From a candidate division NC10 bacterium CSP1-5 (GTDB lineage Bacteria > Methylomirabilota > Methylomirabilia > Methylomirabilales > CSP1-5): a DNA stretch of 64,000 nucleotides. How positions within the stretch are numbered: position 1 is the first letter of the stretch; every line of letters begins with the position of its first letter. The notes under the pieces were generated by a model. The model had not been told where the DNA came from. It saw only the letters and a list, made by a program, of their open reading frames with translations, and searched no databases. The position numbers were made by a program, and so were the translations under genes. The stretch spans positions 98,295 to 162,294 of the forward strand of contig LDXR01000004.1 of the NCBI GenBank assembly GCA_001443495.1, read 5' to 3'. Positions 5,457 to 45,697 of this stretch are shown here, in pieces.

Positions 5457-5849
5457 ATGGCACCGAAGGTCGGGTCAAGCTACACCATCAAGCGGCGGGT
5501 TGAGCCGGAACACTCGGCGGACAGGCATGGGAATCCCGGGATCGATGTCTTTACCACCCCCCTTCTCTGCGAATGGAGCGAGGAGGCGGCGGTTCTCGCG
5601 GTCCAGGATCAACTGGATCCAGGAATGATCACCCTCGGGACACGCATCGACCTGAAACATCTCGTGGCGACTCCGATCGGGATGATGGTCCGGGTGACGG
5701 CCACCTTGAAGGAGATTGATGGGCGGAAGCTGAGCTTCGCCGTCGAGGCCTACGACGAAAGGGAAAAGATCAGCGAGTGCACCCACGAGCGCTTCATCGT
5801 CACGAAGAGCCGCTTCCTGGAGAAGGTCGCCGAAAAGGCAAAGGGGTAG
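5457..5849 (+). CDS. Hot-dog thioesterase, fluoroacetyl-CoA thioesterase (FlK)-like
   Basis: A 130-residue protein of the hot-dog fold. Characteristic segments are VFTTPLLCEWSEEAA, GTRIDLKHLVATPIGM with the conserved histidine, and FAVEAYDEREKISECTHERF. This is the FlK/DUF of small acyl-CoA thioesterases, which hydrolyse acyl-CoA in the cytoplasm. True FlK specificity for fluoroacetyl-CoA is rare, and nothing here indicates it. The ATG has AGGAGGAGC upstream and a promoter-like element lies before it. The rtcA frame begins 74 bases after the stop, so the two may be cotranscribed. Confidence 0.85.
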   Translation: MAPKVGSSYTIKRRVEPEHSADRHGNPGIDVFTTPLLCEWSEEAAVLAVQDQLDPGMITLGTRIDLKHLVATPIGMMVRVTATLKEIDGRKLSFAVEAYDEREKISECTHERFIVTKSRFLEKVAEKAKG

Positions 5850-5923
5850 GGCAGGGTGGCGCGGCCCCTGCGGATGCCGCGCCGCAGGCCAGGGTGTGGG
5901 GGCGGCTTCTCGATCGCGCGACG

Positions 5924-6955
5924 ATGCTGACGATCGACGGATCCTACGGGGAAGGGGGAGGGCAGATCCTCCGAACTGCCCTGGCCCTGAGTGCCGTGCT
6001 GGACCGGCCGGTGCTGATCGAAAAGATCCGCGCTGGACGGAGGAACCCGGGACTTCAGGCCCAGCACCTGGCCGGCGTCAAGGCATTGGCCGAGATCACC
6101 AGGGCTGAGGTCGAGGGGGCCACCGTCGGGTCGACTTCGCTCCGGTTCGTTCCGGCCCGCATTGCTCACGGAGCCTATCGGTGGGATGTGGGTACCGCCG
6201 GCGCCATCTCGCTCGTGCTGCAGGCGATCCTGGTCCCGCTCGCGTTCGCACCCGCTGCTTCGCATATTGCCATCACCGGCGGGACACACGTCCCGTGGAG
6301 CCCTCCATTTCCTTACGTCGAACAGGTCCTCCTCCCCACGCTGCAAGGCATGGGCCTTCGGGTGTCGCTCAGACTCGGGCGGTGGGGGTTCTACCCGAAG
6401 GGGGGAGGGATGGTCGAGGGGACGATCGAGGCCTCGACGCTTCGGCCGGTGACTCTCACCCGTCGAGGATCGCTCACGGAAATTGTGGGCCTCTCGGCGG
6501 TGGCCGGGGTCCCGACAGACATTGCGGAGCGGCAGCGGCAGCGCGCCCTCGCGCGTCTCAGCTCACTCGGGGTCCCTTGTCGGATTGAAACCAGCGCGGT
6601 GCAGGCGTCAAGTCCGGGGACGGTCCTCTTTCTTTTGATCAGGTGTGAGGGGGGACGGGCCGGATTCAGCAGTCTGGGCGCAAGGGGAAAACCGGCGGAA
6701 CGCGTGTCGGATGAGGCCTGCGATGAGGTTTTTGTGTATCTCGAGCAGGAGGGGGTCGCCGATCCTTACCTGGCCGATCAGCTCCTGCTGCCGATGGCCC
6801 TCGCCTCCGGCTCGTCCTCGATGACGACGACGCGAGTGACCGAACACCTGTTGACGAACCGGTGGGTGGTAGAGCAGTTTCTTCCGGGACGCGTGAGGGT
6901 CGAGGGAGGCGTGGGGCAGCCGGGTCGCGTAACGGTCGAGGGCGCCGGCCGATGA
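5924..6955 (+). CDS. rtcA: RNA 3'-terminal phosphate cyclase
   Basis: A 343-residue cyclase that converts RNA 3'-phosphate ends to 2',3'-cyclic phosphates using ATP through a covalent AMP-histidine. The start MLTIDGSYGEGGGQILRTAL is the family signature, followed by IRAGRRNPGLQAQHL and GAISLVLQ. The likely nucleotidylated histidine is in TEHLLTNRWV near residue 312. The length matches E. coli RtcA. The ligase RtcB and the regulator RtcR are not in the window, so the usual rtcBA operon is absent here. A TGAAC repeat lies directly after the gene. Confidence 0.92.
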   Translation: MLTIDGSYGEGGGQILRTALALSAVLDRPVLIEKIRAGRRNPGLQAQHLAGVKALAEITRAEVEGATVGSTSLRFVPARIAHGAYRWDVGTAGAISLVLQAILVPLAFAPAASHIAITGGTHVPWSPPFPYVEQVLLPTLQGMGLRVSLRLGRWGFYPKGGGMVEGTIEASTLRPVTLTRRGSLTEIVGLSAVAGVPTDIAERQRQRALARLSSLGVPCRIETSAVQASSPGTVLFLLIRCEGGRAGFSSLGARGKPAERVSDEACDEVFVYLEQEGVADPYLADQLLLPMALASGSSSMTTTRVTEHLLTNRWVVEQFLPGRVRVEGGVGQPGRVTVEGAGR

Positions 6956-7428: not shown

Positions 7429-7725
7429 GTCTTGCGCTGGGGTTCACACACGGACGCTGGCGAAGACACCGGTAAACGCCCTCCTGGTATAGCGAAAGCT
7501 TGACTGCTCGGCACTGCGCTTGCTACACCCGCCCCAGGTAGTTCACAGTTCATGGTTCGCGGTTCACAAACAGCCGCCAGTAAGGATGCAACGCTTCGAG
7601 CTCGACCGTGATCCAGAGCGACCCATACCCCTCCCGCTTTCGACTGTGAACAGTGAACGGTGAACCGTGAACGCTACTGCCGGTTTTGACTTTCAATCTG
7701 TGAACGGTGAACCGTGAACGCTCCT
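7429..7725. repeat. Intergenic block with three GTGAAC repeat runs
   Basis: No supported gene lies between the rhodanese and the deacetylase-like gene. Runs of TGAAC units occur at 7541-7567 (GTTCACAGTTCATGGTTCG, reverse sense), 7644-7673 (GTGAACAGTGAACGGTGAAC) and 7699-7721 (GTGAACGGTGAACCGTGAAC). The last run ends just before the deacetylase start codon, so it may include or overlap its leader. The spacing is too short and the units too degenerate for a CRISPR. Confidence 0.65.
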
Positions 7726-8574
7726 ATGACACGGGTGGGCATTTTCTATCATGAAAGCTTCAGCCGGCGGAGCTATCTGACCGTCGGCCGGCGATTGGCC
7801 GATTTCCCTGCCGCCCTCGACGAGCTCTTGCAGGACGAGCGGTTCCGCCTCTACCGATGCTCCGAGGCTGACGATCGGCTCATCCTCCAGGTCCATCGTC
7901 CCGCGCTCATTCCGGAGGTAGAGGCGGACCCGCTGTGAAGCACCGCCAGGGCCTCGGTCGGAGGCGTCGTAGCGGCGGCAGAAAAGATCTGCGTCGGCGA
8001 GTTGGATCGGGCGTTTGCCTTTATCGGTGCGGGCGGGCACCACGCGGGGGTGGATTTCTTCGGCGGCTACTGCTGTTTCAACGACGTCGCCATCGCCATC
8101 GCCCACCTCCGGAACACCTACGGCGTCCGCCGGTTCGCCATCCTCGACACCGATGCCCACCATGGCGATGGGACGCGGGACATTGTCCAGGAGGACCCCG
8201 ATGTCCTCCACGTCTGCATCTGCGGCATGAACTATGTCTCTCCGGACGGGACCAAGGTCGATGTCCCCGCCCCCTGGGGAGGCCGTGACCCGGACGAGGC
8301 GTATCTGAAGACGGCGGAGTCTGCCTTTGCCTCGAGGGTCCGGGACTTTCGGCCGGATCTCACCGTCTGGTACTTCGGCTTTGACGGGCACCGGGGAGAC
8401 TACGGAGATATGGGACTTTCCCTTCGCTGCTTTGTGGGACTCGCCGATTTCATGGTTGGAGCAGCCCGGGATGCCTCAAGCGGCAAGCTCCTCACGGTTT
8501 TGGGAGGAGGCTCCCGCACCGACCTCGCCACAATGATCATCCCCCAGGTCATCCACCGCCTCGGCGCGGAATAA
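7726..8574 (+). CDS. Histone-deacetylase-fold amidohydrolase, candidate selenoprotein
   Basis: Two reading frames, 7726-7935 and 7939-8574, are in the same phase and separated by one TGA (7936-7938). Together they make a full-length 282-residue HDAC-superfamily enzyme. The N-terminal part (GIFYHESFSRRSYLTVG, then LILQVHRPALIPEV) and the part after the TGA (STARASVGGVVAAAEKI) are the two sides of one conserved region, so the TGA reads as residue 71 in DPL-U-STAR. Catalytic features are intact: HH at 105-106 in GAGGHHAG, the zinc-site motif DTDAHHGDG at 141-149, and WYFGFDGH later. A compact hairpin with a GGUCG loop follows the TGA. Substrate is likely an acetylated amine, polyamine or protein lysine. 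The neighbouring rhodanese also has UGA codons, which supports recoding. Confidence 0.8.
7939..7975 (+). promoter_or_regulatory. Candidate bacterial SECIS hairpin in the deacetylase-like gene
   Basis: Twelve bases after the UGA, GCCUC (7951-7955) and GAGGC (7961-7965) form a perfect stem with the five-base loop GGUCG (7956-7960). CCGC (7943-7946) may pair with GCGG (7972-7975) to extend it. Position, stem length and a G-starting loop with GGUC match the known bacterial SECIS; the E. coli fdhF loop also contains GGUC. Confidence 0.7.
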
Positions 8575-8615: not shown

Positions 8616-9458
8616 TCACCGAGGGAGGTGGAGAGCGAGGCATTTGGCGGAGCCTCCGGCCTTGAGGAACTCGGAGAGGTCCAGCTCGACCACCTCAAAG
8701 CCTCGCCGCTCCAGCTCCTTGCTGAGCGGCCTGGACATCCCGCGGTGCAGGATCACACGCCGGTCGATCACGACGGCGTTGCAGCAGAATCGGAGCGCAT
8801 CGGCCGTGGAGACGGGCACCGGGTCGGGGACGTTGGTCTCTATGACCTTCCACCCGTAGCGATCAAAGGCTCCGGGATACCAGAGGGCCGATGTGGCATC
8901 AAGGGGACAAAAGCACGTATCGAGGTGGTAGAAGCGCTTGTCAACGAGCTCCAGGGGCAGGACCCGACGCCTCAGAATCTGTGCGAGCCGCTCATGCACT
9001 ATGGCATCCGAGCGGAATCGAAAGCCGAGGAACACAGTCTCGCCCACCGATAGCGCATCCCCTTCGCCTTCGAAGTTGAACTGTCTGGGCAGCGTCACCA
9101 CGCGATAGCCGCGCTGTCGGAAGTACCGCTCGAAGATCGCCTCTTCTCCACGGCGCTCGGGATGGCGGAAGTTCGTGCGGACGAACGTGTCGCCCGCCAC
9201 CAGCCCCGCATTCGCCGTAAAGACCAGGTCGGGCAATCGCTTTACTGGCCGGACGAGCTTGATGGGCACCCGGAGCCTGCGCGTCAACAGGTCGTATAGG
9301 GCCTGCCACTGGCGGGCGGCCACGGGTTGAGTCACCTGCCTCGTGACCCTCATCCAGGGGTTGATCTCGTACGCGATGGTGTAGTGACGCGGGCGGCACA
9401 TCAGGAGCGCCAGGGATGGGAGCGTGCCGTCTCTAGCGGGGCGATAACTTGAGCGCAT
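8616..9458 (-). CDS. Arginine dihydrolase / dimethylargininase-like amidinotransferase-fold enzyme
   Basis: About 280 residues of the guanidino-group-modifying fold. The active-site set can be followed: Asn in EINPWM, Asn in FTANAGL, Glu and Asp in FEGEGDAL, His in FYHLDTCF and the nucleophilic Cys in GGSAKCLALHL near the end. These match arginine dihydrolase ArgZ and dimethylarginine hydrolases. The ATG at 9458 is chosen because LLMCRPRHYTI is already part of the conserved first strand, so a start at 9401 would cut it. It overlaps the upstream ornithine-cyclodeaminase-like gene by 26 bases. Together the pair would take arginine to ornithine and then to proline. Confidence 0.82.
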   Translation of the reverse strand: MRSSYRPARDGTLPSLALLMCRPRHYTIAYEINPWMRVTRQVTQPVAARQWQALYDLLTRRLRVPIKLVRPVKRLPDLVFTANAGLVAGDTFVRTNFRHPERRGEEAIFERYFRQRGYRVVTLPRQFNFEGEGDALSVGETVFLGFRFRSDAIVHERLAQILRRRVLPLELVDKRFYHLDTCFCPLDATSALWYPGAFDRYGWKVIETNVPDPVPVSTADALRFCCNAVVIDRRVILHRGMSRPLSKELERRGFEVVELDLSEFLKAGGSAKCLALHLPR

Positions 9459-10656
9459 GGCAGAGTTCCCGCAGGAACGAGGCCGCGTCCGAGACGATGC
9501 CAATCCCCTGGAAGGTCCCGCGATCGGCGAGCTTTGTCACGACGGCCGGGTTGATGTCGACGCAGATGGTCTTGACCGTGGCCTGAAGCAGGTTCCCGGT
9601 GGCAATCGCATGGAGCGTGGAGCCGATCATGAGGGCCAACCCCACCCCTTTGAGATGGCGGCGCATCTCATCCTGGGCTTTGAGCACATCGGTGATCACG
9701 TCCGGCAGGGGGCCATCGTCTCTGATGGAGCCGGCCAGGACGAACGGGATCCGGTGCCTGACGCAGGCGTGCATGATGCCCTTGGTCAAGACGCCCTGGC
9801 GGACTGCCTGGCGGATGCCTCCACAGGCGCGGATCGTGTTGATGGCGCGCATGTGATGGTCGTGGGTGTCCCGGACCGGACCCCTGCGATCGAGCGAGAC
9901 GCCGAGGGAGGTCCCAAAGAGGGCTGACTCGATGTCATGGACTGCCAGCCCGTTGCCGCCAAAGAGCACATCGACATATTTCACCTCGATGAGCCGCTCC
10001 AGGTACCGACCGCCTCCGGTATGGACGATGGCCGGGCCTCCAACGACGAGGATCTTTCGCCCGGCCTGCTTCGCGGACCGCATCGCCCCGGCGACGCCGT
10101 CGATGAGGAGGCCCTTAGGCTTCTCGGACGAGACCGCGCTTCCCATGAACTGAAAAACATCCTTGTGCCTCGACCGCTCGAGGGGGGTCACGCGGACGCC
10201 GGTCGTGCCGCAGGCGACGAGATTCCCTTTTCTGACGTGGGTCACCGGGACACACCAGGCCCGTGCGGTCCGGGGATCGATCACGATCCCACAGTCCATC
10301 TCGATGTTCTCCACCGACCGCCAACGCCCCTGATACCGCACGGCGGTGGGTAGATTCGTCGTGGAGTAGAAATCGGTGGGGAAGACGCCGTCCTGTCGCG
10401 CGCGGACGAGCTGAACCTCGTGCAGGGTGAGGGGCGTGGCCCCCAACCGGGCCAGCCGTTTGAGGATGGCCTGGAGCTTTTGCTCGGACGTCGCACTGAC
10501 CTTCAGGCGGGCGGTCGAGGGATCGGTCTTGCGTTTGCCGACGGCGATCTCGAGAATCTCGAAGGTCCCGTCGAGATCGATGATCTCATCCAGAATCTTC
10601 GGGAGGATCAACGAATCGAGAATATGCCCACTGACCTGGACGGTTTCAGAGACCAT
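9433..10656 (-). CDS. Archaeal-type ornithine cyclodeaminase (TIGR00300 / LOR-SDH domain)
   Basis: A 407-residue protein beginning MVSETVQVSGHILDSLILPK, which is typical of the TIGR00300 family with its N-terminal LOR/SDH domain. The C-terminal half is a Rossmann-like region with KILVVGGPAIVHTGGG and FVLAGSIRDDGPLPDV. Homologues from methanogens act as ornithine cyclodeaminases, making proline from ornithine. In cyanobacterial AgrE this domain is fused behind an arginine dihydrolase domain. Here the two domains are separate, overlapping genes in the order cyclodeaminase then dihydrolase. The start ATG follows a long non-coding leader. Confidence 0.85.
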   Translation of the reverse strand: MVSETVQVSGHILDSLILPKILDEIIDLDGTFEILEIAVGKRKTDPSTARLKVSATSEQKLQAILKRLARLGATPLTLHEVQLVRARQDGVFPTDFYSTTNLPTAVRYQGRWRSVENIEMDCGIVIDPRTARAWCVPVTHVRKGNLVACGTTGVRVTPLERSRHKDVFQFMGSAVSSEKPKGLLIDGVAGAMRSAKQAGRKILVVGGPAIVHTGGGRYLERLIEVKYVDVLFGGNGLAVHDIESALFGTSLGVSLDRRGPVRDTHDHHMRAINTIRACGGIRQAVRQGVLTKGIMHACVRHRIPFVLAGSIRDDGPLPDVITDVLKAQDEMRRHLKGVGLALMIGSTLHAIATGNLLQATVKTICVDINPAVVTKLADRGTFQGIGIVSDAASFLRELCHALKLSPR

Positions 10657-44788: not shown

Positions 44789-45697
44789 ATGAAAATTTTC
44801 TATTCCCCAAAGTACGAAGTCGATTTGGGACCGCACATCCTCCCGACCGTCAAGTTCCGGTTGATCAAGGAAAGGCTCATTGAGCTGGGGATCGCCAGGG
44901 CCGGGGCTTTCGAGGAGCTCCCTCCAGCTCGAGATGATGATATCCTGCTTGTCCATACGCCGGCATATCTCGACAAGTTTCGGCGAGGGACGCTGACCGC
45001 TGGGGAGTTAGCGGTGCTGGATCTTCCCTTTTCCCCGGGGCTCGCGGAGGCGGCTTGGATCGGCGTGGAGGGAACCATCCGGGCCGCTCGATACGCCCTG
45101 GAGACCGGCCTGGGAATCCACATCGGCGGCGGCGGTCACCACGCCTATCCGGATCATGGCGCGGGCTACTGCGTCTTCAACGACGTCGCGATTGCGATTC
45201 GTACACTGCAGCGGCAAGGGCGGATCGTCAAGGCCATGGTGATCGACTGCGATGTGCACCAGGGGGACGGCACGGCCTTCATCTTTCGCGAGGAGCCCAG
45301 CGTCTTCACCTGCTCCATCCATCAGGAGGACCTCTATCCGGAAATCAAGCAGCAGGGCGATCTGGACATCGGGTTGCCGTCTGGGGCGGGGGACGAGGAG
45401 TATCTCGCCGAGCTGTCGCGGCATGTGCTGCCAGCCGTCGAGGTCTTCCGCCCCCAACTGCTGATCTATGTCGCGGGAGCGGACCCGTACCAGGATGATC
45501 AGGAAGGGGGGCTGAAGCTCACCTTCGCGGGGCTCGAGCGCCGGGACCAGATCATCTTCCAGGAGGCAAAGCGGAAGCGTGTTCCCGTGGCCGTGGTGTT
45601 GGCGGGTGGCTATGCCCGAAGGACCGCCGACACCGTCGCGATCCATGTGACGACCATTCGAACCGGGCTGGAAGTGATAGGCCGCAAGCGAGGCTAG
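44789..45697 (+). CDS. Histone-deacetylase-superfamily amidohydrolase (class I-like, AcuC/HDLP type)
   Basis: A 302-residue zinc amidohydrolase. The catalytic dyad is in GGGGHHAYPDHGAGYCVFND, then VAIA. Zinc ligands lie in MVIDCDVHQGDGTA (Asp, His) and VAGADPYQDDQEGG (Asp). Pro/Gly-rich GLPSGAGDEEY follows. Unlike the deacetylase-like gene at 7.7 kb it has no in-frame UGA, so the window holds one ordinary and one UGA-containing HDAC-fold gene. Probable substrates are acetylated lysine, acetylpolyamines or acetoin-related acyl groups. The LD-carboxypeptidase gene follows 17 bases later. Confidence 0.92.
   Translation: MKIFYSPKYEVDLGPHILPTVKFRLIKERLIELGIARAGAFEELPPARDDDILLVHTPAYLDKFRRGTLTAGELAVLDLPFSPGLAEAAWIGVEGTIRAARYALETGLGIHIGGGGHHAYPDHGAGYCVFNDVAIAIRTLQRQGRIVKAMVIDCDVHQGDGTAFIFREEPSVFTCSIHQEDLYPEIKQQGDLDIGLPSGAGDEEYLAELSRHVLPAVEVFRPQLLIYVAGADPYQDDQEGGLKLTFAGLERRDQIIFQEAKRKRVPVAVVLAGGYARRTADTVAIHVTTIRTGLEVIGRKRG

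Follow-up and report, generated by a model that had tools for sequence, protein, structure and literature searches.

The classical bacterial zinc-dependent deacylases (HdaH, AcuC, ApaH; clusters 1-5 of the survey PMC11532494) share the arginase/deacetylase fold, their zinc ligands and a catalytic His pair. In the same survey, the foot pocket is wider and the acyl groups are longer where the GGGXHH variant occurs, and the long-chain deacylases have no RPP motif before the HH. Human HDAC8, which has the same fold, carries a pair of thiols close to its active site, and the C102-C153 disulfide forms a redox switch turning the enzyme on or off (PMC6174833). Selenocysteine (Sec) has been catalogued in 119 prokaryotic selenoprotein families (PMC13188914), in which TGA/Cys pairing, a downstream hairpin and Sec machinery in the genome are found. 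According to this catalogue, most of the selenoproteins characterized so far adopt a thioredoxin-like fold, and redox motifs occur in most selenoproteins.

The window analysed here is a stretch of 64,000 nucleotides from the candidate division NC10 bacterium CSP1-5 (phylum Methylomirabilota). It carries a predicted HDAC-fold selenoprotein gene (7726..8574, + strand) that starts with an ATG at 7726, ends with a TAA at 8572-8574 and encodes 282 residues when an in-frame TGA is read (7936..7938, + strand; residue 71, predicted Sec). An earlier note on this DNA had described two frames of the same phase split by this single TGA. Both frames are present, and the sole Pfam match of the joined product is Hist_deacetyl (PF00850, E 1.7e-41). 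The gene shares with the families of PMC13188914 the pairing of TGA with Cys among its homologues, a candidate hairpin just downstream and the Sec machinery, whereas its product has the HDAC fold, for which this prokaryotic catalogue (May 2026) has no entry. The same absence had been supposed in the earlier note, and no NCBIfam model (June 2026) matches the read-through protein. Full-text searches of the literature gave no report of an HDAC-fold selenoprotein, and deacetylases go unmentioned in the deep-Sep paper; such a protein may have been predicted earlier in the groundwater study of Deng et al. 2026, which, as cited in PMC13188914, predicted 63 selenoproteins for one Methylomirabilota MAG. 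Directly 5' of the start codon, the intergenic region (7540-7725) contains repeated words such as GGTTCAC and GTGAACGGTGAACCGTGAAC.

To collect homologues, we scanned a species-genome collection, which gave 21 loci, and searched three phyla: Methylomirabilota (95 genomes), that of Desulfoferrobacter (395) and that of an Archaeoglobales archaeon (294). The resulting set contains 73 distinct sequences from Methylomirabilota, sulfate-reducing and related bacteria, and Archaeoglobales-type archaea, with residue 71 covered in 71 of them. At this position, 17 homologues have a TGA and 54 a Cys, without any other residue. Every TGA-less homologue thus has a Cys (54/54), as would be expected from the Sec reading proposed in the earlier note, and sequences with neither Cys nor TGA amount to 0 out of 71. 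The 17 distinct TGA alleles come from 16 Methylomirabilota genomes, one with Rokuibacteriota in its record; among the genomes searched, the TGA form is therefore confined to the phylum of the window. A genome from the same order as the window (locus L053) has a Cys at residue 71. In the phylogenetic tree, for which only a midpoint root is available, the TGA alleles form a single clade (support 98/99) nested in the Cys forms. A single Cys-to-Sec change within Methylomirabilota would therefore suffice to account for these data.

We then compared the selection acting on the two sides of the TGA. On the 3' side, dN/dS ranged from 0.06 to 0.18 in all pairs tested, and on the 5' side from 0.06 to 0.22, with a single outlier pair at 0.62 that rests on just 18 changes. 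In most pairs the 3' value was lower than or equal to the 5' value. In addition, close relatives differ mostly by synonymous changes over the 21 codons that separate the TGA from the next in-frame start. Neutral evolution of the read-through region is rejected by these values, and the codons 3' of the TGA are, judging from the substitution pattern, coding and under strong purifying selection.

The genome of the window contains selA (600 bits), selB (380 bits), the tRNA-Sec gene selC (74.3 bits) and a selD gene with its own in-frame TGA. Near selB, an fdhA gene has a TGA at the usual place of the UH motif. The host is thus equipped for the synthesis of selenoproteins. As selB was found in 83 of the 95 genomes of the phylum, its presence is useless as a correlate of the TGA form; no selB was found in 3 of the 16 genomes with a TGA allele, two of which are poorly complete.

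A SECIS-like hairpin lies at 7951..7965 (+ strand), 12 bases past the TGA. Beyond the 12-base spacer (7939-7950), it consists of a perfect 5-bp stem (GCCTC/GAGGC; 7951-7955 / 7961-7965) and a GGTCG loop (7956-7960), and corresponds letter for letter to the five-pair stem with a GGUCG loop described in the earlier note. Compared with synonymous resampling, the stem of the window is unremarkable when taken alone (p = 0.23). A bacterial SECIS hairpin is expected to have a G in its apical loop, about 16-37 bases past the UGA. Each TGA allele can fold into a short hairpin whose loop starts about 17-23 bases past the TGA. Among 15 aligned TGA alleles, 90.5% of the cells of a 6-bp helix are paired, vs. 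50-66% for versions with a shifted 3' partner, and the outer pair of this helix is swapped from G-C to C-G in one TGA subclade. Against synonymous resampling, and bearing in mind that the TGA alleles are related to one another, the mean folding z was -1.38 for TGA alleles and +0.33 for Cys alleles, and the median hairpin p was 0.056 and 0.46, respectively. The exception is the Cys allele L053, which is also stable at the hairpin site (z -2.27). The amino acids SVGG by themselves favour such a stem. An Rfam search of the window for SECIS elements gave a single result, a tRNA, which has no weight either way. Because the alleles are related, SVGG favours the stem and the window alone gives p = 0.23, the support for a SECIS element is moderate and not decisive. 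The case for Sec is carried by the comparative evidence, the stem of the window alone not being remarkable.

Two other readings of the TGA have to be weighed. It could be a true stop, either in a decayed pseudogene or in a split gene whose halves are made separately. Elsewhere in the window, TGA indeed terminates genes, e.g. those encoding RtcA and the arginine dihydrolase-type protein, and the downstream frame offers a possible TTG start at 8002 (residue 93), the first in-frame start codon 3' of the TGA. However, the near-invariant block STAR.SVGGVV (residues 72-82) is located 5' of this TTG, ahead of any start past the TGA, and can therefore be translated by read-through of the TGA alone. 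A true stop also agrees poorly with a TGA shared by 17 alleles whose pairwise dS reaches about 1.8, with the low dN/dS past it, with the Cys always aligned to it in relatives and with the absence of any TAA or TAG version of codon 71 in the 71 homologues. We consider this reading very improbable. The TGA could otherwise be read as another amino acid, by genome-wide reassignment or plain read-through, which would also yield a single uninterrupted frame. This is hardly credible, since solid genes of the window terminate at TGA, which is therefore not reassigned, the residue of the relatives is only Cys, and the genome has a Sec system with known Sec genes. The pseudogene, split-gene and reassigned-UGA readings were rejected on the residue 71 column, the dN/dS values, and the start-codon and stop-codon evidence. 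Decoding of UGA71 as Sec in an HDAC-fold protein, as claimed in the earlier note, is very likely given the TGA/Cys column, the selection 3' of the TGA, the recurrent hairpin and the complete Sec system of the genome.

The AlphaFold2 model of the read-through protein has a pLDDT of 84 and a pTM of 0.89, and is weak at residues 16-22 and 107-113. Its best structural match is the HDAH of P. aeruginosa (5g0x; Z 30.6, rmsd 2.3, 268 residues) over the whole length, and the fold searches returned only HDAC-fold proteins among the matches listed. The zinc ligands D143 and H145 (8152..8160, + strand; 72/72 sequences) and D220 (8383..8385, + strand; 70/70) are invariant in the subfamily and are shared with bacterial deacylases. 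The catalytic His pair H105-H106 (8038..8043, + strand), whose meaning is taken from PMC11532494, is invariant in the subfamily, but in a GAGGHH motif instead of RPPGHH; the lack of RPP before HH is shared with the long-chain deacylases. Unlike bacterial deacylases, this subfamily also lacks the catalytic Tyr: the GGGY / XGGY loop of HDACs is replaced by GGGS (S263; 8512..8514, + strand; 69/70), and no conserved Tyr was found in residues 258-270 of the subfamily alignment. All catalytic motifs had been announced in the earlier note, which holds for the zinc ligands and the His pair but not for this Tyr. Across about 70 sequences from bacteria and archaea, 71 alignment columns show no or almost no variation, and an unusual N-terminal block (YH.SFS.RSYLT.G.RL..FP) is among them. 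Such a constraint suggests a single conserved reaction. On alignment grounds, these proteins form a separate HDAC-fold subfamily in which no characterised member was found, and "histone deacetylase" is here the name of a fold and not of a reaction.

Five positions of the subfamily are invariably Cys or Sec: 71, 116, 117, 164 and 166. C116-C117 (8071..8076, + strand) are invariant in 73/73 sequences and C164-x-C166 (8215..8223, + strand) in 70/70. In two ordinary HDAC paralogues, from the same genome and from a relative of the genus, C116 is kept, with Tyr in place of C117, Ser in place of C164 and His in place of C166; the Cys/Sec at residue 71 is likewise absent from the ordinary paralogues aligned. 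The GFC motif has its Cys, C153 in human HDAC8, at the position of C116, whereas C102 of HDAC8 is not the counterpart of residue 71, which is predicted to be Sec instead of Cys. When ordinary HDACs are aligned by hand on the helix, the equivalent of residue 71 is aromatic. In the AlphaFold2 model, a short turn finishes at residue 71 and the main helix begins at 74; by alignment, residue 71 would lie beside the foot pocket, and C164 and C166 map to the strand adjoining the active site. The window contains a second HDAC-fold gene, without TGA (about 45116-45637, + strand; G000:C4:143410-143931; 36% identity), and a third one is found on another contig (G000:C7:99076-99597), about 1 kb from selA (96753-98117).

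In the mechanism that we propose, UGA71 would be decoded as Sec by SelB and tRNA-Sec with the help of the downstream hairpin, and the product would be a zinc protein of 282 residues; our confidence in these two steps is high. It is moderate for the next one, in which the product would be an enzyme of the acyl-hydrolase type whose active site is altered: the zinc ligands and the His-His pair are kept, the Tyr is replaced and the foot-pocket loop has the non-RPP motif GAGGHH. For Sec at UGA71 and this altered scaffold taken jointly, we estimate a probability of about 85%. With low confidence, Sec71 would lie next to the acyl (foot) pocket, immediately ahead of the helix starting at residue 74, and would be redox-active, pairing with an invariant Cys, most likely C116 or C117. 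A selenol at the start of a helix is in a typical redox-active place, as in thioredoxin-like motifs. Such a pair could act as an on/off switch like C102-C153 of HDAC8, or stand in for the missing Tyr in catalysis. Considered alone, this redox role has slightly less than an even chance.

Other roles can be imagined for Sec71. Together with the invariant cysteines, it may serve as a ligand or modulator of a second metal, or have a structural role, without redox cycling. The existence of five invariant Cys/Sec positions within a zinc enzyme, two of them (164 and 166) adjoining the active site by alignment, would fit with this role. However, Cys-to-Sec changes mostly affect redox-active or catalytic residues, most selenoproteins having redox motifs (PMC13188914), and a metal or structural role seems rather unlikely. 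Sec71 might also be a direct catalytic residue, a nucleophile or an acid/base that offsets the missing Tyr in deacylation: the whole subfamily has lost the GGGY Tyr while residue 71 stays Cys or Sec. Here, the alignment places residue 71 before the foot-pocket helix and not in the substrate tunnel, which makes this role doubtful too. The broader reading, built on the redox or catalytic importance of Sec71, is that of an HDAC-fold selenoenzyme family that is not yet listed, corresponding to a Tyr-less and Cys-rich subfamily in which Sec/Cys71 would be the key redox or catalytic residue and the reaction would not be classical lysine deacetylation. We hold it tentatively, at a little under even odds. 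The subfamily is common to Methylomirabilota, sulfate reducers and archaea. If this reading is true, selenium is used by an enzyme fold counted with the best-studied drug targets in biology, the Sec/Cys pair points to residue 71, in bacteria as in archaea, as the centre of function in an HDAC-fold subfamily, and it can be tested directly whether HDAC-fold enzymes are able to use thiol or selenol chemistry. As automatic annotation splits the gene at the TGA, it would tend to overlook this predicted selenoprotein.

Finally, we looked at the genes surrounding the HDAC-fold gene. No conserved operon across phyla was found that could guide the search for a function, the neighbours differing by phylum. 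In seven Methylomirabilota loci (the window, L004-L006, L011, L012 and L059), the Sec form is preceded by a gene encoding an RNA 3'-terminal phosphate cyclase (RtcA; 5777..6955, + strand, in the window), and an ArgA-type acetyltransferase gene is located upstream in 8 Methylomirabilota loci. In 12 Desulfobacterota-type loci (L013 of Desulfoferrobacter suflitae, L018, L020, L023, L080, L082, L083, L085 and L093-L096), an RNA 2'-phosphotransferase (KptA/Tpt1)-like gene is found just downstream of the Cys form. Enzymes of RNA terminal or 2' phosphates thus adjoin the same HDAC-fold gene in two phyla, and this common theme may be a coincidence. An acyl-CoA synthetase gene adjoins the HDAC-fold gene in 9 archaeal loci, which recalls AcuC and AcsA (PMC11532494). 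The RtcA and KptA neighbours hint at RNA-end chemistry, and the acyl-CoA synthetases at deacylation. Downstream of the HDAC-fold gene in the window, a convergent gene encodes a DDAH / arginine dihydrolase-type protein (8616..9503, - strand), followed by a gene encoding a nickel-pincer-nucleotide ornithine cyclodeaminase (9433-10656, - strand; TIGR00300, 531 bits). Each of these two genes matches one half of the bifunctional ArgZ model.
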